Of a stretch of 55,279 nt of DNA, positions 43,787 through 55,279 are shown piece by piece. Within the stretch, counting starts at the first letter, position 1; every line of letters begins with the position of its first letter. Origin of the DNA: an uncultured Chthonomonas sp. (GTDB lineage Bacteria; Armatimonadota; Chthonomonadetes; Chthonomonadales; CAJBBX01). The position numbers were made by a program, and so were the translations under genes. The DNA lies in assembly GCA_903951425.1 (NCBI GenBank), contig CAJBBX010000078.1, positions 1 through 55,279 on the forward strand, in the 5' to 3' direction. Under the pieces are notes generated by a model. The model did no database searches. It saw nothing but the letters and a program-made list of their open reading frames with translations, and was not told the DNA's origin.

Positions 43787-45943
43787 CTACGGCAACCCCT
43801 CCACGTTCGCCAGGTTGCAGAAGCGGCCCTTGGAGGCTGCGTTCTTCTCATCCATCACCGTAAGGCGCAGCATGTGCCTGCCGGCGGCCAGGCCCGCGAA
43901 GTCCCAGTGCGCCTTGTCACCGCGGACCGGGCCATACTCGTCGAGCGTTCCCACCATCTTTCCGTCGATCTCCACCTGGAACATGCCCGCGTCATCGTAG
44001 TGGAACCCGTGAACGCGAACGCCGATACCGGAGAATGAGACCTGCACGACCGAACCCGGCGACGCCGAGGTTTGCCACTCGCCGAAGTCGGACCAGGCCC
44101 CGGTGAAGGCGTAGCCGACCCACGAGCGCCGCACGAAGTTGCGCACAGGATCGAGGTAGAGGAAGTAGGGCTCCCCTGCCGCGAACTGGCTGAACGGCCG
44201 CACCAACAGCGCGGCATCCTTCCCCGTCCGGTAGTTGAGCGGCTGGCCAGGCACCGGCTTCAGCGTGGCGTCGAGCCGCTTGGTATCGACCTCGCGTGAG
44301 GGGTTACCCTCTGTGGGACGCACGGCCAGCGCCACCGGTCCGCGCATGATGGCGACCGGAAACTCCCTGGCCGGATCGATGCGGCTCAGGCGGAAGCTCA
44401 TGGGCAATGAGACACGCAGCGTGTCGCCGTTTCGCCAGACGCGGCGAACCCTGCCCCAGTGGTCATCGCCGGCCTCAAGCGTCATCGGCTTGCCGTTCAC
44501 CCAGGCTTTCGGCTCTCCGGCCAGCCACTCCGGGAGGCGCACGGCCAGGCTGAACTCGCGCGGCCGGGACACCTGCACGGTGAGTTCCGTCGCCTCCTCC
44601 TCGGGGAAGCGGGTCTGCTGCCGCGCCTGTACGCGGGCGCCCCTGTGCTTCCACTCCACCGTCGCCGGAGCGAACTGCACGGCGTAGAGCGTCTCGTCGT
44701 CATGCATGAAGATCAGGTCGTGGTAGTCGGCCGTCAGTTCGATGCGGGTGCCCGAGCAGCAGGGCCAGCCGTCGGAGATGAGCTTCTTCACGCCGCCGCC
44801 CAGGTTGTAGTCGGAGTAGTAGAAGACGCATCCCTCGGGGTCCATGGGGATGGTGGCGCCCACGCCGTTCAGCAGGAGCCTCTCCGCCCAGTCGCCATAG
44901 CGGGCATCGCCGGTGAAGGCCAGCAGGTACTTGCAGAGCTTGAACCCCGCCCACGACCCGCACTGCGTCTCGAAGTGGCTTGCGCCGCGCTCCAGCGAGG
45001 CCGCGAGGTCGGCCCGGGCAATGAGGCTCTCGCCGGGCCCGAAGCCGCCCGTGGCGTAGGTCTCCTCCTGCTGCATGAAGTCGTAAGCCGCCTTGAGTGT
45101 CTCGAGGTAGCGCGCCTCGCCGCTGACGCGATAGGCCGGGCCCGCGCCGCAGAACGAGTTGACGTGGCTGTAGGCGTGGTACCAGCCCTTCCAGCCGGGG
45201 CGGTCGAAGGGGTTCGCGCGGCGGCGGATAATCTCCCAGAAGTCGGTGTACTCGAAACGCCTGGCGAGCTTGAGGCATCGGGCGTCGCGGGTGACCTCGT
45301 AGGCGCGGTAGAAGTTCTCGGCCAGCGTGTACCACTCGCCGTTCAGCACATACCAGTTGCCGTCGGTGGCGTTGATGTGCTTCTCGGTGCCGGCGAGGTT
45401 GGCCTCCGACCAAGCAACCAGGCGCAGTAGCGGCTCCACGGCGCCCGTCTCACCGCAGTAGGCGATCATATCGACGAGGCCGCCGATCAACTTCTCCACG
45501 TGATAGGGCGCCAGGTCGATGGGCTTGGCCTGGAGCGCGTAGCCGTCGGGCTCCATGCACGCCGCCCAACCCGCCAGCAGGGCCTTGGCCTTCTCCTTGC
45601 AGGCGACATCGCCTGTGGCGGCATAGAGCCTGGCCAGGCCGGAGATGTGCTGCCCGAAGGTACCGTGGCCAATGTAGGCGCCCTTCAGGTCGGCTCCGGG
45701 CGCGGGCTTGCCTGCCCGCAGGCGATAGGGCTTGAGCAGGTCGTCGTTGGGTATGCGCAGGTATGCGGCGCGCACCTCCTCAACCTGCTGGCGCAGGCGT
45801 CCGCCGTCCAGCGTGACACCGCGGTAGTCGAAGCTCTTAAGCATGGAACGGCCTCCCGCGGGCGTTGCGCCGGACGGGCCGGCCAGGGCAAGGGCCGCCA
45901 GCACAAGGGCGGCGGCGATTCGCGGTACCAAGTAGTCGCTCAT
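43787..45943 (-). CDS. Secreted GH127-family (beta-L-arabinofuranosidase-like) hydrolase
   Basis: A 718-residue protein with signal peptide (about 1-27). The (alpha/alpha)6 domain carries the zinc-cysteine site of GH127/GH146: HFETQCGSW (Glu325, Cys328) and WPCCSGTRIEL (Cys395, Cys396), where the first Cys of the pair is the usual nucleophile. C-terminal beta-sandwiches follow, the last one (about 610-718) resembling a carbohydrate-binding module. GH127 removes arabinofuranose from plant glycans. The spacing ETQC differs from the common ETC by one residue. Start ATG 45943: there is no Shine-Dalgarno site, but a -10-like box lies directly upstream, suggesting a leaderless mRNA. Convergent with the GH9 gene. 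Confidence 0.85.
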   Translation of the reverse strand: MSDYLVPRIAAALVLAALALAGPSGATPAGGRSMLKSFDYRGVTLDGGRLRQQVEEVRAAYLRIPNDDLLKPYRLRAGKPAPGADLKGAYIGHGTFGQHISGLARLYAATGDVACKEKAKALLAGWAACMEPDGYALQAKPIDLAPYHVEKLIGGLVDMIAYCGETGAVEPLLRLVAWSEANLAGTEKHINATDGNWYVLNGEWYTLAENFYRAYEVTRDARCLKLARRFEYTDFWEIIRRRANPFDRPGWKGWYHAYSHVNSFCGAGPAYRVSGEARYLETLKAAYDFMQQEETYATGGFGPGESLIARADLAASLERGASHFETQCGSWAGFKLCKYLLAFTGDARYGDWAERLLLNGVGATIPMDPEGCVFYYSDYNLGGGVKKLISDGWPCCSGTRIELTADYHDLIFMHDDETLYAVQFAPATVEWKHRGARVQARQQTRFPEEEATELTVQVSRPREFSLAVRLPEWLAGEPKAWVNGKPMTLEAGDDHWGRVRRVWRNGDTLRVSLPMSFRLSRIDPAREFPVAIMRGPVALAVRPTEGNPSREVDTKRLDATLKPVPGQPLNYRTGKDAALLVRPFSQFAAGEPYFLYLDPVRNFVRRSWVGYAFTGAWSDFGEWQTSASPGSVVQVSFSGIGVRVHGFHYDDAGMFQVEIDGKMVGTLDEYGPVRGDKAHWDFAGLAAGRHMLRLTVMDEKNAASKGRFCNLANVEGLP

Positions 45944-45949
45944 GGCGTG

Positions 45950-45979
45950 AGCGTACTGCGCCGTGCGCGGGCGTGTCAA
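45950..45979 (-). promoter_or_regulatory. Predicted promoter of the GH127 gene (leaderless)
   Basis: On the minus strand TTGACA (45979-45974) and TACGCT (45955-45950) are separated by 18 bases. The -10 box ends six bases before the ATG, so transcription would start at or next to the start codon. This fits the absence of a ribosome-binding site. Confidence 0.5.
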
Positions 45980-46083
45980 GCGCGCCAACCGACGGCAGCG
46001 CCGTGGGGCGTACGCCGCCTTGCCTCTATCTGCTATGGTATCGGGTAGGCGTTATGTCCGAACGCCGAACGCGGAGGATGCCC

Positions 46084-48672
46084 GTGGGATTCCTTGACGT
46101 GAGGACGCTGCTCTGGAGCCTTGCGGCCCTGGCTCCGCTCTGCTGCGTCATCATCTGGTCTCTGCATTTGCAGTGCCGGGGCCGGGCCCAGGGAACGGCG
46201 TACTTCGGCTGGGCGTTCACGGCGGCGTGGGGCGGGGCCGTCCTGATGGCGCTACGGGGCGCCATCCCGGACTGGGCCTCCATCGTCGTAGCGAACATCC
46301 TGGCAGTCCTCACGGTCTGGATGGTCGTCCTCGGCTTGGAGCGCCTCGCGGGCCTTCGCGGACCACACTGGCAGAACCTGCTGGCAGTCGTGCTGACGGG
46401 CCCGCTCTTCTACTACTTCTCCGATGTGAACCCCAACCTGACCGTGCGGCATCACCTCTACGCGCTGATGTCGCTGCTGCTATTCGGGCAGGGCGCCTTC
46501 CTTGCCTTCCACAGGGCGGACCCGCGAATGCGCCCGGCCCTGCGGCCGCTCGGCCTGACCATGGCGATCATGTGCCTTACCATGGCGATTCGCATCGTCA
46601 CACTGGCAATCTGGATGCCCAGGACGCAGGAGTTCATGGCCCCTGCGCCCAGTAACGCCCTGATCGTCCTGGCTTCGCTGGCCCTGCACCTGGCCCTCAC
46701 GTTCTCCGTGGTCGTAACCGTGAACGCCTGGCTGCTGCAACAGGTAGCCGACCAGGAGGACCGGTTCAGCCGCGTCTTCCAGCGCGCTCCATATGCAGGC
46801 ATCATCCACCGCCTGTCCGACAGCACAATCGTCGATGCCAACGAGCAATCGTCACGCCTCCTGGGTATCGCGCGCGACAAGCTGATCGGAACCAGCCTCC
46901 AGGCACTGGGCGTCTGGATCGATCCCCAGGAGAACCAGGCAGCTCGGACCGACCTCCGCGAGCGAGGCCGGCTCGTCGGCCGCCATGTCCGGCTACGGCG
47001 CCCCGGCGGCGAGGTGATCGACGTTCTTCTTTCCGCCGAGACGGTTGACATCGACGGACAGCCGTACATCCTCTCCAGCTACCTCGATATTAGTGCCAAT
47101 GTCCGGTCGGACAAGGTGCTCCGCAAGTCCGAGGAGAGCTACCGGCTACTGATCGACACGCATCCCGATGCCATTTTGCTGGTGGACCTCCGAGGAGCGG
47201 TGCTGCTGGCCAATCCGGTAGCCCGGTCGCTCCTGTGCGTCGGCGAGAGCGAGGCGCACGGGAAGTCGCTTGGCGATCTCCTGCCGGAGGCGACGACCGG
47301 CATCCTCCAGAGGGCTTCGGACGCCACGTCGCAGGAACGCGAGACGCGCACGTTCGAGACCAGCATGAGCGACGGCAAGGGCGGCGCCGTGCCGGCCGTC
47401 GTGGCCGCGACTCCCGTCCTCCTTCGGACCAGCGCGGTCGCCATCCTGGTGGTCGCTCGCGACATCACCGACCAACGCCGAGCCGAGGAGGCGCGCGAGC
47501 AGATGGAGCTCCGTCTCATCCAGGCACAGAAGATGGAGTCTGTCGGCCGGCTCGCCGGCGGCGTGGCGCATGAGTTCAACAACGTGCTGACCGGCATCCT
47601 GAACTACGTGGAGCTCACCTCGGCTGACCTGCCCGCCGACCATCCCGCCCGGTCGATTGTGGCCGACATCGCCGACGACGCCAGTCGCTCGGCGCAACTG
47701 ACGCAGCGGCTGCTCCTGCTGGCCAGCCACGGGACAGCCGAGCCGCGCGCCACCGACCTCAACCAGCGCATGGCCGGGATGATGACCATCCTCAGGAGCC
47801 TGGCCGGCGAAGGCATACAGGTGACGTTCCAACCCGGCGAGGGGCCGACCGTCGTTCTCATCGACCCGGCCAACCTGGACCAGATCGCCCTGAACCTCAT
47901 CGTCAACGCCCGCGACGCCATGGCGTCCGGCGGCGAGGCCACGATCGTGACCGATGCGACGGCGCTGGACGACGAGGCGGCGGCGAGGCTGGGCCTGTCG
48001 CCGGGCGACTATGTGCGGATGACCGTCGCCGACACAGGCCATGGACTGACGGACGAGGTGCGCGGCCACCTGTTCGAGCCATTCTTCACCACCAAGCCTG
48101 AGGGCAAAGGCACGGGCCTGGGGCTTGCCACGGTTCAGAGCGTCGTCAGACAGGCGGGCGGCGCCGTTGAGGTGGAGAGCCGCGAAGGGGCGGGAGCCGA
48201 GTTCCGCGTCTACCTTCCGGCGCACACATTCGAGGACGAGGAGCCGGGCTCAGCCGCCGCGGCAAGCCACGCGGGCGGACGTGAGCAGATGCTGCTGGTC
48301 GAGGATGAGAAGTCCATCCGGATCACAGTGCAGAGGTTCCTTGAGGACGCAGGGTACTCCGTCATATCGGCAGAGTCACCCGAGGTCGCCCTCACGCTCC
48401 TCGCCGAGCAGCAAGGGCCGATCGATCTTATGCTCACCGACGTGGTCATGCCGGGTATGAATGGTCCAGAACTCGCGGCTCGGTTGCGGACCGAGCGACC
48501 GGCCATGCGCGTCGCCTACATGTCCGGATACCCTGCGGACACGATGGGGCGTTACGGGCTGGCGCCCGGGACGGCGCCGTTCCTGCCCAAACCCTTCACC
48601 AGGCACGAGCTACTCGCGCTGATCCGAGCCACTCTCGATCGGCCGGCCGGACCCGATACCCACGGACCGTAG
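46084..48672 (+). CDS. Hybrid sensor histidine kinase (7TM-like, PAS-PAS-HisKA-HATPase-REC)
   Basis: An 862-residue protein. GTG 46084 is preferred because GGAGG lies six bases upstream; in-frame ATGs at 46054 and 46078 are poorer. About six or seven membrane helices occupy 5-225. PAS domains lie at about 228-345 and 351-470. The HisKA box is [13 protein letters not shown] with His496, followed by an ATPase domain ([28 protein letters not shown]) and a C-terminal receiver (about 737-855) with Asp786 in LTDVVMPG. It would pass a signal from the membrane to its own receiver. No DNA-binding response regulator is encoded beside it. It may sense cell-envelope or substrate cues for the genes after it. 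Confidence 0.9.
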
Positions 48673-48708
48673 CCAAGCACCCATACACCAGCCAGGAGGC
48701 GCTGCACC

Positions 48709-50148
48709 ATGCAAGACCCGCGCGATACCGCCATTCAGACCGGCCCCTTCGATCCCACATGGGAGTCGCTGCGCACGTTCGAGACACCGGACTGGTTCCG
48801 CGACGCCAAGTTCGGCATCTGGGCGCACTGGGGACCGCAGTGCGTGGCCATGTGCGGCGACTGGTACGCCCGGCGCATGTACCAGCCCTCCGACTGGCTC
48901 TACCACCACCACTGGCGCGTCTACGGGCACCCCAGCAAGTTCGGCTACAAGGACATCATCCCGCTCTGGCGCGCGGAGAGCTTTGACCCAGAAGCCTTGA
49001 TGGACGAGTACGTGGCGGCCGGCGCACGCTACTTCGTCGCGCAGGCCGTGCATCACGACAACTTCGACAACTGGAACTCCACGCACCATCGCTGGAACGC
49101 CGCGAACATGGGACCCAAGCGCAACATCACCGGGCTCTGGCAGGAGGCCGCCGTGCGGCGCGGCCTGCGCTTCGGCGTCTCGGAGCACCTGGGCGCGGCC
49201 TTCTCGTGGAACAAGTTCAACAAGGGCGCCGATGCCGACGGCCCCTACGCGGGTGTCCCCTACGACGGCAACGACCCGGCCTTCGAGGACCTCTACCTGC
49301 CCAACCAGGGAGACCCGCACGACTGGTACACCGACAACCCATGGTGGCACGCACGCTGGTTCGCCCGCATGAAGGACCTGATCGACCAGCACCAGCCTGA
49401 CCTGTTCTACAGCGACGGCGGGGTGCCGTTCGGCGACGTGGGCCTCCGCCTCATCGCGCACCTGTACAACTCGAGCATTGCGCGGCACGGCTCCAACGAG
49501 GCGGTCTACAACCAGAAGGACACGAACCCGGACGTCTACCGCGTGGGCGTGCTGGACATCGAGCGCGGCCAGAGGCAGCAGATCGCGCTCGAGCCGTGGC
49601 AGACCGACACCTGTGTGGGCGGCTGGTACAACGACAGCAGGCTCGTCTACAAGACCGGCGACCACGTCATCGAAATGCTCATCGACATCGTCAGCAAGAA
49701 CGGCAATCTCCTCCTGAACTTCACTCAGAAGCCCGACGGCAAGCTGGACGACGAGTGCCGGTGGATTCTGAAGACGCTGGCCCGGTGGTTCGCCGCCAAC
49801 GCCGAGGGCATCTACGGCACGCGCCCCTGGGAAGTCGCCGGCGAAGGCCCGAGCATGCCCGCCCACGGCGCCTTCAAGGAGGACAAGGTGGGCTGGTCGG
49901 TGGAGGACTTCCGCTTCACGTCCAAGGGCGACACGGTCTACGCCTTCCAGATGAAGTACCCCGAGGGCGGCGCGGCGGCCATCCGATCGCTTGGCTTGGG
50001 CACGGGACGGACGGTGCGATCGGTGCGGATGCTGGGCTACGGCGGCGACGTGGCGTGGGAGCAGGCGGCGCAGGCCCTCATCATCCGGCTGCCGTCCGAG
50101 CGCGTGGCCCCGTCGGCGCCGGGCTTCGCCGTCGAACTGGCGCCGTAG
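48709..50148 (+). CDS. GH29 alpha-L-fucosidase
   Basis: A 479-residue protein matching GH29. Family stretches are RDAKFGIWAHWGPQCVAMCG (31-50, substrate pocket), YVAQAVHHDNF-like HHDNFDNWNSTH, and the nucleophile strand DLFYSDGGVPFG with Asp236. ISKNGNLLLNFTQKPDG-type residues (VSKNGNLLLNFTQKPDGKLD) mark the barrel end, followed by a C-terminal beta domain. It removes alpha-linked fucose from plant, algal or host glycans. No signal peptide is visible, so it may act in the cytoplasm on imported oligosaccharides. The ATG at 48709 has AGGAGG 11 bases upstream. It is followed after 24 bases by the MoxR gene. Confidence 0.9.
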   Translation: MQDPRDTAIQTGPFDPTWESLRTFETPDWFRDAKFGIWAHWGPQCVAMCGDWYARRMYQPSDWLYHHHWRVYGHPSKFGYKDIIPLWRAESFDPEALMDEYVAAGARYFVAQAVHHDNFDNWNSTHHRWNAANMGPKRNITGLWQEAAVRRGLRFGVSEHLGAAFSWNKFNKGADADGPYAGVPYDGNDPAFEDLYLPNQGDPHDWYTDNPWWHARWFARMKDLIDQHQPDLFYSDGGVPFGDVGLRLIAHLYNSSIARHGSNEAVYNQKDTNPDVYRVGVLDIERGQRQQIALEPWQTDTCVGGWYNDSRLVYKTGDHVIEMLIDIVSKNGNLLLNFTQKPDGKLDDECRWILKTLARWFAANAEGIYGTRPWEVAGEGPSMPAHGAFKEDKVGWSVEDFRFTSKGDTVYAFQMKYPEGGAAAIRSLGLGTGRTVRSVRMLGYGGDVAWEQAAQALIIRLPSERVAPSAPGFAVELAP

Positions 50149-50172
50149 CAGAAGGCGGGATAGGAGCAGCGC

Positions 50173-51162
50173 GTGTCAGAGAGCCAACAGGGCGCCGGTC
50201 CGCAGGCTGCGGCCGACTTCGTCAGCGGGCTGGCCGGCCGCATCATAGACAACGTCGAGAAGGTCGTCATCGGCAAGCGCCAGGCGGTGCAGAGCGTCGT
50301 CACCGCCCTGTTGAGCGAGGGCCATGTGCTGATGGAGGACGTGCCCGGCGTTGCCAAAACGGTGCTGGCCAAGTCCGTGGCGCGAAGCATCGGCGGGACG
50401 TTCCACCGAGTGCAGTGTACGCCCGACCTGCTGCCGTCGGACATTACGGGCAGTTCGGTCTACAACCAGGGCGGCGGCCGGTTCGACTTCATACCCGGAC
50501 CGGCCTTCGCCAACATCCTGCTGGCCGACGAGCTGAACCGCGCCACGCCGCGCACGCAGTCGGCGCTCTTGGAATGCATGGCCGAGGGGCAGATCACCGT
50601 GGACGGCGCCACGCGTGAGCTGCCCCGACCCTTCGCCGTCTTCGCCACGCAGAACCCCATCGAGTACGAGGGTACCTTCCCGTTGCCCGAGGCCCAGCTC
50701 GACCGCTTCTGCGTCCGCATCTCCGTGGGCTACCCGGACGAGTCGGCAGAAGTGGCCATGCTCGAGCGGCTCCGCCTATCGCACCCGGTCGACGACGTGG
50801 CGGCCGCCGCCTCGCTGGAGGAGGTCTCGCACGCCCAGGGGCTGGTCCGCACGATCTTCGTCCACGACGAGGTGCGCCGCTACATCGTTCGCCTGGTGCG
50901 GGCCACACGGGGCCATGCCGACCTGGAGTACGGCGCAGGGCCGCGCGCTACGCTGGCCCTCTTCCGCATGGCGCAGGCCGCAGCGGCCATCCAGGGCATG
51001 CCCTACGTGGTCCCCGACCATGTGAAGGCCGTGGCGCGGGTCGTCATCGACCACCGCCTGGTGCTCAAGCCCGAGGCGCGGCTCAAGCGCATGGCTCCCG
51101 GCGAGGTTACCGCCAACCTGCTGGCGCGCATACCCGCACCGACGCCCAAGAGCGCGGCATGA
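50173..51162 (+). CDS. MoxR-family AAA+ ATPase
   Basis: A 329-residue AAA+ chaperone-like ATPase. Walker A is DVPGVAKT (56-63), Walker B is NILLADELNRA with Asp119/Glu120, and PFAVFATQNPIEYEGTFPLP carries sensor 1 and the MoxR signature. MoxR proteins remodel or activate partner protein complexes. The GTG start has GGAG eight bases upstream. Its stop overlaps the start of the DUF58 gene (ATGA), the standard partner in MoxR-DUF58 clusters. The GKT Walker ending is AKT rather than the usual GKT, with no expected loss of function. Confidence 0.93.
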   Translation: MSESQQGAGPQAAADFVSGLAGRIIDNVEKVVIGKRQAVQSVVTALLSEGHVLMEDVPGVAKTVLAKSVARSIGGTFHRVQCTPDLLPSDITGSSVYNQGGGRFDFIPGPAFANILLADELNRATPRTQSALLECMAEGQITVDGATRELPRPFAVFATQNPIEYEGTFPLPEAQLDRFCVRISVGYPDESAEVAMLERLRLSHPVDDVAAAASLEEVSHAQGLVRTIFVHDEVRRYIVRLVRATRGHADLEYGAGPRATLALFRMAQAAAAIQGMPYVVPDHVKAVARVVIDHRLVLKPEARLKRMAPGEVTANLLARIPAPTPKSAA

Positions 51163-52397
51163 ACCGGTCGGTCTGGGTCACCTTCGTGGTGGGCCTGGCC
51201 CTGATCTCGGGTCTCAGCGGCTCGTGGACGGGCGCATGGCTGGCGCTCTCGGCCGCCGCGCTGGTGATCTACTCGGCCATCGCGTTCCGCAAGCCCGCCC
51301 AGCTACTCAGCGCGCATCGCCGGGTCGCCACCGGAAACGTGGCGCCCGGCGAGGCCGTGATCGTGCATCTCGGCATCGCCTGGCAGGGGCTCCGCGCTCC
51401 CGGCTGGGTAGTTGCCCGCGACGAGGTCTGCACCGGCCTCAAGGCGCTGGATCCACCGGGCCGCCTCTTCGTGGCCTCGGGCAGCCGGCAGCTGACCCTT
51501 TCGTACCGGCTGCAGGGCGAGAGCCGCGGCTACTTCCCCGTCGGTCCCACGGCTGTCTCGTGCGGCGACTTCTTCGGCGCCGTACGCAGCGTGGCCCGGC
51601 GCGACCGGGTGGACTACCTCACGGTGACGCCTCGCGTGGTTCGGACGCCGCGGGTGCGGCTCCCCTCCAACCGGCCCATCGGCGATGCCCGCTCCCCCAA
51701 CCGGGCCTTCGAGGATCCCTCGCGGCTCGCCGGAGTGCGCGACTTCCAGCCCGGCGACGGCATGCGGCGCATCCACTGGCGGGCCTCGGCGCGCACGGGC
51801 AGGCTGGCGTCGCGGGTGCTGGAGCCCTCCTGCTCCACCGAAGTGAACATCGTCCTGAACCTCCACCAGGCCGACTACCCGCCCGACGCCGAGTCGCTGG
51901 AGCACGACGTCGACCTGGCCTGCACCACCGTGGCCTCGCTGGCCGCCAGCCTGCTGGGCGACAAGCAGGCGGTGGGCCTGCAGACCAACGGCCTCGACGC
52001 CCGCTGGGCCGCCGAGGGCATCCCGCCTGCGCGGCGCCGGCCCAACCGCATCCGTCCGGATCGGAACCCGGCGCAGTTGCCCGACATGCTGGCGCTACTG
52101 GGCCGCATGGCCCCGAACCCGGCAGATCCCCTGCCCGACTTCCTGACCGCCGTCCACTCGCACCTGCCCTGGAGCGCCACGCTGCTGCTGGTGACCCACG
52201 GGATCGACGAGCGCGCCGCACTGGCCCTGCGCGAACTGCGGCGGACCGGCTTCTCCATCGCGGCCATTATCGTCGGCACGGGCGACGATACCGTGCATGC
52301 CGAACACCGCGCCGCCGCCCTGCGCCTGCCCATGGCCCGCGTGAAGGATGAGGACGACCTTGAGACGCTCGAGATCATCGCTCCAAGACGGCGCTGA
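51159..52397 (+). CDS. DUF58 (von Willebrand A-like) membrane protein
   Basis: A 412-residue protein. Two membrane helices occupy about 5-43, followed by a beta-rich part and the DUF58 signature GVRDFQPGDGMRRIHWRASA near 192-212, with TGRLASRVLEP after it. The C-terminal half is VWA-like (STEVNIVLNL...; ATLLLVTHGIDER). DUF58 proteins work with MoxR ATPases, probably in assembly or maturation of secreted or surface complexes. Start overlaps the MoxR stop by four bases, and its end overlaps the next gene by 50 bases. Confidence 0.9.
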   Translation: MNRSVWVTFVVGLALISGLSGSWTGAWLALSAAALVIYSAIAFRKPAQLLSAHRRVATGNVAPGEAVIVHLGIAWQGLRAPGWVVARDEVCTGLKALDPPGRLFVASGSRQLTLSYRLQGESRGYFPVGPTAVSCGDFFGAVRSVARRDRVDYLTVTPRVVRTPRVRLPSNRPIGDARSPNRAFEDPSRLAGVRDFQPGDGMRRIHWRASARTGRLASRVLEPSCSTEVNIVLNLHQADYPPDAESLEHDVDLACTTVASLAASLLGDKQAVGLQTNGLDARWAAEGIPPARRRPNRIRPDRNPAQLPDMLALLGRMAPNPADPLPDFLTAVHSHLPWSATLLLVTHGIDERAALALRELRRTGFSIAAIIVGTGDDTVHAEHRAAALRLPMARVKDEDDLETLEIIAPRRR

Positions 52398-54288
52398 GAC
52401 CCTCGCCCGGTTCTGGGCGCCGGCGCTCTCGGCGGTGGCGGTGGGCGCGCTGCTCCTCTACCCATGCGCCGGGCTCGCCATGGCCGGACAGGCCGACGCC
52501 CTGCTCTGCTGGGCGGCTTCCTTGGTCATTAGCGGCATCGGCATGGCCATGACGCTGGGCGAGGCGTCGCGGTTGAGCCGGGGAGTGGCCTCCTGGGTGC
52601 TGACCGTGATCGGCCCGGGCGCCCTCCTCTTCGTAGCCACTGCCGGCGGCAGCCGGTCGATGATGTCGCTTGCTGCGGGCCTCATGCTCCTCGCCACCAC
52701 GGGCTGGTGGCTCATGGTCGCCCTGCTGGAGGAGTGCGCGGGGCTGGAGGAGCCCGACGACGCGGCCAAGCCCCGCACCGTTCGCACCTTCACGCTGCTT
52801 CCGCCATTCCTCGTGGAGAGGCCCGTCACCGGCCGGGGCTCGTCCGCCTTCTCCGGCAACGCCATCGCCAGCGTGGGCATCCTGGGCGCCGTCATACTGG
52901 CCGGCGGCGAGTCGCTGGCATCCACAGGCGCCCCCGTGGCTCCCGCGTGGCCTTTCGGCCTAGTCCTCTACGGCTCCCTGGGCATGCTCGCCTCCCTGAG
53001 CAAGCTGCAGGAGCAGGTCCGGTCCATCGGCCGCGGCGTGCAGGTCGCGGGTTCCATCGTACCGGCGTGGCTGCAGTCGGCCCTCATCGTGCTTGCGGCC
53101 AGCGCGCTTCTGGGGCTGTTGCTGCCCAAGCAGATCCTGACCGGTCCCGGCCAGGCCGCCAAGGCGTCGGCCTGGGAGCGCCTGACCAACGCCGCCCCGC
53201 AGCCCGATCCCTCCTCCCAGGGCGAGGAGGGCCGTGGGCAGCCATGGAACCCCGGGTTCGAGGGTCTGAACCGCGGAGCCCGCGGCGCCGGAGGCCAGGG
53301 GCAGGGACTCGCCGGAACGCGCCCCGGCCAGGCCCGACAGGAGGGCGCGCCCGGCGGCAAGCTCCCCCGGCCCGTGCCCGGCAAGCCCGGCGAGCAGGGC
53401 CCGAGGCAACCCTCGGCCGCCGAGCAGGCGCTGGCGAGGGCGCTGGACGCCGCCACGGCCATCGCCAGGCTGGGCGAAAGAGGCGCCGAAGGTACGCAGG
53501 GCGGCCAGGGCCGAAGCCCAGGCGGGTCCGAGCGAGGAGAGGCGCAGGGCCCCACCGGGGCGCAACGGTCCGGCGGTGGCGGCGAAGGCGAAGGCGACGG
53601 CGAGGGCCAGGGCCAGGGCCGGTCGGCGGCCGATGGGCAGGCCGAGGCCCAGACGCCCGCGGAGAAGGCGAGCCAGCTGGCAGAAGCCCTGCGCGATAAC
53701 CCACTTCGCCTGCTGAAACTGGCGCTCGTCATGGCGGCCGTCACGTTCGCCCTGTACGCGTGGCGCAAGTGGGCCTGGCCGGTGATCCTGCGCTGCCTGG
53801 CCTGGCTGGGAGTCCGAGCGGCGGCGGCGTGGGCGGCGGCGCGCAGCGGGGTCCTGGGCTCCCTGGCCCGCAGGCGCCGCGACGCCCGGTTCCAGGCTGC
53901 CCTAGCGGCTGCCGGCGACCCTTTCGCGGACCCCCTGGCCGAGCGGGCATCGCCGGACCGTTTCGCGGAGGCCGCCTACGCCGGGTTCGCCGCCCAGGTC
54001 TGGCTCATGGGCCGGGAGAAGGGCGATGCGGAGACGGCCTTCGACTTCGCGGCCTCGCTAGCGCGTTCATCGTCGCTGGACGCCTCAGCCGTGCAGACTA
54101 TCACCCGCGAGTGCGTGGGCGCCCACTTCTCCGGGTCGTCGCTGGATGCGACTGCCATCGAGCGCGTCCGGCAGGCCCTGCGGGTAGTGCGCGACCAGGT
54201 GGAAGGCTCCATGGCTCCCGACCTGCTGGCCCAGCGCAAGGCACAGTACCGCCGGCAGTTGGCCGAGGCCACCATGGCCGAGCCGTGA
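52348..54288 (+). CDS. Multi-pass membrane protein with DUF4129-like C-terminus
   Basis: A 646-residue protein. About six membrane helices lie in 20-255. A low-complexity Gly/Gln/Pro/Ala linker follows at about 290-445, then one helix (about 455-475) and a soluble C-terminal domain (about 500-620: ETAFDFAASLARSSSLDASA) that resembles DUF4129. In MoxR-DUF58 loci such proteins often come fused with or beside a transglutaminase domain, which is absent here. The ATG at 52348 overlaps the DUF58 gene by 50 bases; a TTG at 52360 with GAGG six bases upstream is an alternative start. Role probably in a membrane-bound maturation complex. Confidence 0.7.
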   Translation: MRTTLRRSRSSLQDGAETLARFWAPALSAVAVGALLLYPCAGLAMAGQADALLCWAASLVISGIGMAMTLGEASRLSRGVASWVLTVIGPGALLFVATAGGSRSMMSLAAGLMLLATTGWWLMVALLEECAGLEEPDDAAKPRTVRTFTLLPPFLVERPVTGRGSSAFSGNAIASVGILGAVILAGGESLASTGAPVAPAWPFGLVLYGSLGMLASLSKLQEQVRSIGRGVQVAGSIVPAWLQSALIVLAASALLGLLLPKQILTGPGQAAKASAWERLTNAAPQPDPSSQGEEGRGQPWNPGFEGLNRGARGAGGQGQGLAGTRPGQARQEGAPGGKLPRPVPGKPGEQGPRQPSAAEQALARALDAATAIARLGERGAEGTQGGQGRSPGGSERGEAQGPTGAQRSGGGGEGEGDGEGQGQGRSAADGQAEAQTPAEKASQLAEALRDNPLRLLKLALVMAAVTFALYAWRKWAWPVILRCLAWLGVRAAAAWAAARSGVLGSLARRRRDARFQAALAAAGDPFADPLAERASPDRFAEAAYAGFAAQVWLMGREKGDAETAFDFAASLARSSSLDASAVQTITRECVGAHFSGSSLDATAIERVRQALRVVRDQVEGSMAPDLLAQRKAQYRRQLAEATMAEP

Positions 54289-54400
54289 GCCCTGCGGCCC
54301 TGCATGAACCGAGTGCCGCTCAGGTAACGTAGTAGTATCGTCTGTCGCTTCGCAACCCAGTGTCGCCGCCGGCCGCCGGCCGGCCGGCCGAGGGGGTGCC

Positions 54401-55279
54401 ATGCCGTTTCGGTCCACCGCAACGCAGAGCCGCTCAAGCGCCCGCGGTTACGTCCGCGCCGCGTCGGGCAACGCATGGCTGCCCGATCTCCGTTCGCAGG
54501 TGCCCGCAGCCGCCGCGCCAAGCTCCACCCAGCTCCCCGGCATCTGGGGCGGCGCCTTCAGCTTCAAGCGCGGCGCGGACCACTACTTCCTGCTCCCCGA
54601 CCTCCAGGGCCACACCCGGCACATGGCCAACGCGGCCGGGGCGGTTACCCACACGTTCATCTACGACGCGTGGGGCCGTGAGATCTGGCCCATCGTCGGA
54701 ACCGGCGTCTATCTGCGGCCCTTCGGCCAGTGGGGGTACTATAGGGATACGGCCAGCAGGCTCTACGTGCGGGCAAGGCACCTCCGGGTGGAGTTGGGGA
54801 AGTGGGTGAGCAGGGATCCGATTGGATTCGAGGGTGGTGACATGTCTGCTTACCGATATGTTGCGTCGGTCCCTGTAACACGGTTTGACCCAACGGGCCA
54901 GCTTGAGCTAGTGTCCACGCATCCCGAGCTGTGGCGAAGTGGAAACAAGAGAGACACGTGCTGTGGGCGTTTCAGAGCGCTCTGGAACTTCGAGTTCTTG
55001 CTCCGGCCAGGTGTCGGTAAGAGAGCTCCTTGTGCCGGTTGGATAGTACAGAAAATAACGATTACGCGTAAAGTGTCGGCGTGCGATGGAACTCAACTGC
55101 GCGATCTATTTGTTAATATAACATACTGGGAGGCTTGGCGGTTTAACTTCAATAAATCCGTCAGCGTCATTAGAAATGCCGAAGGTTGGCCCGCTGAGGA
55201 TACCTTCACACACTACTCGGCATTCCCAAGGACTCGAGGTGAGGCCAAGTGGAGTGGACATCTGAAGTTCTGGTGTGAC
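54401..55279 (+). CDS. Short RHS-type protein with AT-richer tail, cut by the window edge
   Basis: The frame is open for all 293 codons to base 55279 with no stop. The ATG at 54401 has GGGGG upstream. Residues about 65-95 carry a YD-like repeat (ITHTFIYDAWGRE-like: VTHTFIYDAWGREI) and about 110-168 the RHS core end: YYRDTASRLYVRARHLRVEL, then WVSRDPIGF and DPTGQ. RHS cores normally follow thousands of bases of repeats, but here only about 90 residues precede it. After DPTGQ comes a Cys-containing beta-rich tail with WIVQKITITRKV and YWEAW, in sequence far richer in A and T (from about 54880). In RHS proteins this tail is the exchangeable toxin or effector part. Confidence 0.7.
   Translation, partial: MPFRSTATQSRSSARGYVRAASGNAWLPDLRSQVPAAAAPSSTQLPGIWGGAFSFKRGADHYFLLPDLQGHTRHMANAAGAVTHTFIYDAWGREIWPIVGTGVYLRPFGQWGYYRDTASRLYVRARHLRVELGKWVSRDPIGFEGGDMSAYRYVASVPVTRFDPTGQLELVSTHPELWRSGNKRDTCCGRFRALWNFEFLLRPGVGKRAPCAGWIVQKITITRKVSACDGTQLRDLFVNITYWEAWRFNFNKSVSVIRNAEGWPAEDTFTHYSAFPRTRGEAKWSGHLKFWCD

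Follow-up and report, generated by a model that had tools for sequence, protein, structure and literature searches.

A short RHS gene in an uncultured Chthonomonas genome as a probable stand-alone tip with an exchangeable tail

The 55,279-nucleotide stretch of DNA analyzed here (the window) is the complete contig CAJBBX010000078.1 (C78) of an uncultured Chthonomonas sp. of the Armatimonadota, whose genome is designated G000 below, and it ends within a short RHS gene on the forward strand. We consider it probable that this gene is a stand-alone, or orphan, RHS tip, composed of a leader, the end of an RHS core with an autoprotease/plug motif, and an exchangeable tail, and that it forms the first unit of an array of such tips. 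The same leader and core precede different tails in a sister species, further copies of the core with other tails form an array on a second contig of G000, and relatives of the tail recur at the ends of RHS genes elsewhere in the phylum.

Gene anatomy and exchange of the tail

The gene begins with an ATG at 54401 and has no stop through the last base of the window. Since the window is the whole contig, the missing stop reflects the contig end, at which the tail is cut. The short RHS frame reported in a first-pass annotation made from the sequence alone is real: residues 88-167 match the NCBIfam RHS core model TIGR03696 (E = 1.8e-11, 44.4 bits against a cut-off of 32.5). The protein is short, as that annotation noted, but its figure of about 90 residues before the core end needs correction: a core remnant of about 125 residues follows a 41-residue leader (residues 1-41) without RHS homology. 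With RHS homology starting only at residue ~43 (54527), the gene has no long YD-repeat shell with an N-terminal delivery region. Its features are as follows.

54401..55279, +, short RHS gene, read as a stand-alone tip gene; 293 codons, cut by the contig end
54318..54454, +, leader element: 5' region, Shine-Dalgarno-like GAGGGGG, ATG and first ~18 codons; recurs at other sites
54401..54526, +, putative leader peptide region; no RHS homology; codon-position differences [2,4,4] and [1,3,0]
54527..54901, +, RHS core remnant, autoprotease/plug region, the last ~125 shell residues; TIGR03696 match, homology to the copies on contig C69 from 54527-54533
54815..54889, +, putative aspartyl autoprotease dyad, Asp139 (SRDP) to Asp163 (PVTRFDPTGQ, which fits PxxxxDPxG); dyad and motif as for RhsA in the excerpted text of PMC8765631
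54902..55279, +, variable tail, N-terminal ~125 residues of the 'YWEAW' tail family; low G+C content (GC); profile match

Both D139 and D163 are intact in the core, as is the PVTRFDPTGQ motif, after which the tail starts; an autoprotease is predicted, with Q after the motif in place of W/L/F.

The junction between core and tail was compared with other RHS loci, as the first-pass annotation had proposed, and the comparison supports an exchange. In G001, a sister species within the genus, this leader and core (91% nucleotide identity, alignable to window position 54819) also lie downstream of the orthologous DUF4129 gene, but the tail that comes after them is unrelated. At another G001 site a third tail follows this leader and core, and leader and core are kept intact at both sites. 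Between G000 and G001, synonymous divergence (dS) is 0.13 in the DUF4129 gene and 0.12 in the leader but reaches 0.59 in the core; this jump from 0.12-0.13 in flank and leader to 0.59 in the core indicates that, relative to the flank, the core was exchanged along with its tail.

The leader itself is a recurring element. It is matched at 84-94% nucleotide identity at the two G001 RHS sites, at G001 C142, where a non-RHS open reading frame (ORF) follows, and in G002, where the leader is present and the RHS core absent. Among the leader loci (L067, L070, L098, and L068), RHS cores stand at three sites, the window included, a non-RHS ORF stands at L098, and L068 has no core. G000 has one full-length copy of this conserved leader, with its Shine-Dalgarno-like GAGGGGG and ATG, and one 31-base partial match on C53. 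Orphan cores of another genome, G005 (L035, L039, L071, and L086), share a different recurring leader, (I/V)EM(N/T)ATAV.

Upstream of the gene (45865-54288) lie genes for a hybrid histidine kinase and an alpha-L-fucosidase, and then for MoxR, DUF58, and DUF4129 proteins. An Rfam scan of 53900-55279 gave 0 hits.

The array on contig C69 and the tail family

Three further copies of the window core occur in G000, all on contig C69 (6.7 kb), at 79-91% nucleotide identity (91, 85, and 80%); two carry other tails and the third is broken inside the core. Read on the reverse strand, C69 opens with a 90-amino-acid tail end and a 345-amino-acid ORF. A core whose tail contains HELGH comes next, followed by a small ORF, and then by a core bearing another tail, by an ORF resembling pentapeptide repeats (recognized by eye), and by the broken core copy. 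The second tail of this array (L015, 3819-4499, - strand) has no Pfam match; we take its HELGH to be a zinc-metallopeptidase-like motif.

The tail end on C69 appears to complete the tail that is cut in the window. Tail profile A2, which included the window tail and not C69, aligned its positions 2-114 to the window tail and its positions 126-193 to C69:6629-6408, and the ends of C78 and C69 share a 7-bp in-frame overlap. Within G000, the tail profiles matched these two places only, also with the later profile. Because of the profile continuity and the in-frame overlap of the ends, C69 very probably follows C78, and the window gene would then be the first unit of the array that continues there. 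The extension past the window suggested by the first-pass annotation meets the contig end, and the likely tail end and a candidate immunity gene are found on C69 and not in the window. This candidate is the 345-amino-acid ORF, which overlaps the 90-amino-acid tail end and has a weak beta-propeller match (PD40, E = 2.4e-4); its place beside the window gene depends on the predicted adjacency of the two contigs.

The sharp fall in GC noted at first pass, together with YWEAW and several Cys, is confirmed for the part of the tail in the window, which holds YWEAW and 5 Cys. GC is 0.523 over 54888-55277, compared to a window mean of 0.685, and the core has 0.669 where the tail has 0.516, with GC at third codon positions dropping from 0.814 to 0.548 at the boundary. 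None of 5,401 sliding 390-bp stretches outside the locus is as low (minimum, 0.608). The likely C-terminal half on C69 has a GC of 0.62, so the low GC is local to the first part of the tail.

A first search of 61 genomes (G000 and 60 relatives) found two clear relatives of the tail, both in G005, and no match in the two genus-mates. Iteration led to a set of 11 rows that includes both G000 halves, in which each left-out row was recovered with an E value no higher than 1.5e-4 (scaled to 100,000 sequences). The window tail matched positions 6-125 of 194 of a 10-member profile at E = 1.0e-38 when the profile contained it and at E = 1.1e-14 when it was held out. Run at E = 0.01 on 291 genomes from the phylum, the 10-row profile found matches in 12. 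One match (G023:C488), a 77-amino-acid frame in which no RHS core was seen, was left out of the count, leaving 11 genomes with 15 loci at RHS ends, the two G000 places being counted as one. Weak hits from earlier searches were dropped, as the 10-member profile did not regain them at E = 0.01 (G030, G038, G056, G112, G100, and G235, and likewise G102, G160, G162, G158, G157, G200, and G210). Cys, Gln, Glu, and Asp are all among the invariant residues of the tail, and close to its end lies a Cys-Cys pair that is almost invariant. A pattern search located the motif PxxxxD(P/W/Y)xG at 9 of the 15 loci, the window included; in G012 the second Asp is replaced (by eye). One tail-family member, on G005 C326 (L045/L118), has a single TAG between RHS core and tail.

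Searched alone, as proposed at first pass, the tail matched no known toxin family. Among 10 tail members, none scored above a curated Pfam or NCBIfam cut-off, the best Pfam toxin match being Ntox17 (E = 0.15, 1 of 10), and PHROGs gave one match, to phrog_30999 of unknown function (E = 2.4e-4, 1 of 10). A weak match of part of the tail to the AQJ64_40280 family (NF041588; E = 0.005, 16.8 bits against a cut-off of 70) was rejected, as only 1 of 10 tail members gave it. The PDB search with the tail returned 0 matches at E = 10. No relatives were found with the tail alone in the genome contig and viral contig collections, with a three-relative tail alignment in the viral contigs, or by tblastn with three tails against plasmids and one tail against phages; a scan of genome contigs with the three relatives returned two records, both already in the genome search. 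To judge from these searches, none of the libraries examined contains the protein family to which the tail belongs.

The ORFs downstream of the tails are candidate partners. The one in G000 (C69) is propeller-like, that in G022 weakly so, and that on G005 C326 was read as propeller-like by eye, Pfam having given nothing. Strongly hydrophobic N-terminal stretches begin the candidate partners in the G000 (C69), G022, G012, G174, and G114 units. Together with the many Cys, these N termini suggest that the site of action may be outside the cytoplasm. Another orphan-tip array (L103, 6577-10554) has a propeller-like ORF in between, and its tails include one that may resemble RlpA/barwin and one that may resemble CHAP-type domains.

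Tips and coupled body genes in family f14

In the Armatimonadota family f14, all nine tail-family loci are stand-alone genes with an ATG of their own, in open frames of 317-349 amino acids. The first 121 residues of one f14 tip, used as a tip-core query, matched 60 of 85 f14 genomes with more than 150 matches; among the 150 matches listed, 144 lie in frames of at most 600 amino acids and 6 in frames of at least 1,000. A general TIGR03696 search of the same genomes gave, among the 150 matches listed, 114 in frames of at most 700 amino acids and 35 in frames of at least 1,000. Thirty f14 loci were examined: 24 are stand-alone frames with an ATG 0-3 codons from the query Met, one lacks an ATG there and possibly uses TTG, and five are continuous with a body. 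At 10 of the 30 (L152, L154, L155, L157, L159, L161, L164, L172, L175, and L178; junctions near locus position 1500), a body ORF ending in WDG..YL lies directly upstream, its stop overlapping the tip ATG by 1 nucleotide (six loci), adjoining it (one), or preceding it by 1-2 nucleotides (three). A programmed frameshift joining body and tip is a less likely explanation, since the frame of the tip relative to the body differs among loci. Five regions picked for several hits (L182-L186) each contain 2-5 tips along with bodies or their remnants, and an ORF lies between most tips. The fixed start holds for the f14 subtype found with the tip-core query. The idea that all f14 orphan RHS genes share one start was rejected, as loci from the general RHS-core search start at many places (30 loci checked, the frame being found by pattern in all but 9).

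These coupled body and tip genes, seen only in f14, are the most interesting lead of the analysis. They raise the possibility that a tip functions as a gene in its own right, its product completing a shell that another gene encodes, so that several tips could serve one body without recombination. The free-standing f14 tips, their constant start, the close spacing of body stop and tip ATG, and the regions with several tips per body are all consistent with this, and, by our reading of the alignments, the RHS homology of the window gene begins at a point equivalent to the f14 tip start. Against it, most other orphans in the window's own family have N-terminal extensions that vary from 49 to 241 codons, which is the classical pattern of fragments; no body lies upstream of the window gene; five of the 30 f14 loci are continuous with a body; and assembly of the two products is a prediction. 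We consider this reading possible for the window gene, although it is not the one we favor. In its boldest form, about as probable, this reading would give RHS toxins a split form, with a shell gene and translationally coupled or free-standing tip genes that start exactly at the plug/autoprotease segment; arrays of tip and immunity genes would then be a store of interchangeable ammunition supplied in trans, no recombination being needed, and the window gene would be such a tip with an acquired leader. None of the papers listed in literature searches described a split form, and no paper on RHS systems of Armatimonadota appeared among the open-licence papers listed.

Orphan RHS tips are usually described as having no start, which raises the question of how they are maintained and put to use. 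Where tips regularly carry a conserved start of their own, set at the edge of the sealing domain and coupled to a shell gene, loading in trans becomes testable.

Weighing the readings, and known systems

Read as a stand-alone tip kept in an array, the window gene would be one of several exchangeable cassettes. Homologous recombination in the shared core would move units of tip and immunity gene between RHS loci, and a tip, if expressed, would come into use once it has recombined onto a complete RHS shell or, in a bolder alternative, would complete a shell in trans as a polypeptide of its own. The Asp dyad would cut the tail loose, the tail may be toxic to a competitor, with the cell envelope as the most likely site, and the downstream protein, predicted to be exported, may protect the producer. 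Several points weigh against this reading. Directly upstream there is no RHS body or rhs main gene, the DUF4129, DUF58, and MoxR-type genes standing there instead, and the leader is without clear coding constraint. The adjacency of C78 and C69 is deduced from the continuous profile match and 7 bp of overlap, and the contigs were left unjoined. The partners are not one family, with only the two G105 proteins alike among 12 compared (E = 4e-6), and some, such as both G105 proteins, lack a strongly hydrophobic N terminus. No known toxin fold was recognized in the tail, and both AlphaFold models were unusable, with predicted local distance difference test scores of 36 (three sequences) and 33 (two sequences). 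Of the two suggestions made at first pass, the orphan tip cassette is supported by the core remnant without a shell, the C69 copies, and the tail swap in G001; the displaced toxin can be kept as a candidate function, no known toxin family having been matched. That annotation had named two findings that would speak against it, a tail that relatives share at matching GC and a gene that continues as an ordinary RHS protein. Neither was found, the tail having no match in the two genus-mates.

It is unlikely that the gene is a decaying remnant, a dead recombination fragment kept by chance. The lack of an upstream shell or delivery domain, a leader that is not clearly coding, the TAG between core and tail in the G005 relative, an internal TGA in one G022 relative, and the broken fourth core copy on C69 are what such a remnant would lead one to expect. 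However, the core has a ratio of nonsynonymous to synonymous divergence (dN/dS) of ~0.06-0.21 (window copy against its four relatives) and an intact dyad, leader and core are intact at the two G001 sites, and the frame is open over 324 codons. Somewhat less probable is a nontoxic surface or binding domain at the RHS end: the tail is rich in Cys and Trp and belongs to no recognized catalytic family, but it occupies an exchangeable position, in arrays with unrelated tails and with a separate small gene after each. We think it improbable that tip and partner form an internally expressed toxin-antitoxin module acting inside the producer, as for Salmonella rhs in the excerpted text of PMC7043789, where tips can be translated from internal starts to give Rhs-CT; the gene has its own ATG and a Shine-Dalgarno-like sequence, but the hydrophobic, signal-like start of the candidate immunity protein better fits an external or periplasmic site.

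The remaining comparisons draw on excerpts of the cited papers. The gene agrees with the description of orphan rhs-CT/rhsI modules, a truncated core with a variable tail, the core being common to other copies. As in the orphan modules of Enterobacteria (PMC3150448 and PMC3967940), there are core fragments of varying length with homology up to a junction and unrelated tails beyond it, a small gene after each tail (for the window unit, the candidate on C69), arrays, and exchange between tips. Those orphan rhs-CT/rhsI and cdiA-CT/cdiI modules are described as usually lying behind a main gene and having no translation starts, whereas the window unit comes after an unrelated operon, carries an ATG of its own as a putative start within a leader that is repeated elsewhere, and ends in a tail family not present in the searched libraries. 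Like RhsA of Pseudomonas protegens (PMC8765631), in which a conserved C-terminal region seals the shell, it has PxxxxDPxG and an Asp pair at the junction of shell and toxin, with a spacing of 24 compared to 22 in RhsA. RhsA differs in being a single polypeptide with N-terminal delivery domains, of which the window gene has none, and in that the RhsA-type motif is followed by W/L/F, in place of the Q found here. A two-gene shell has a precedent in TcB-TcC (TcdB/TccC; PMC3789776 and PMC8765631), in which the second gene has a variable end. The f14 body and tip pairs resemble this arrangement, and we do not claim that they belong to it: TccC5 has 939 amino acids, including much of the shell, whereas the f14 tips carry only ~120 shell residues, with overlap of stop and start codons between body and tip.
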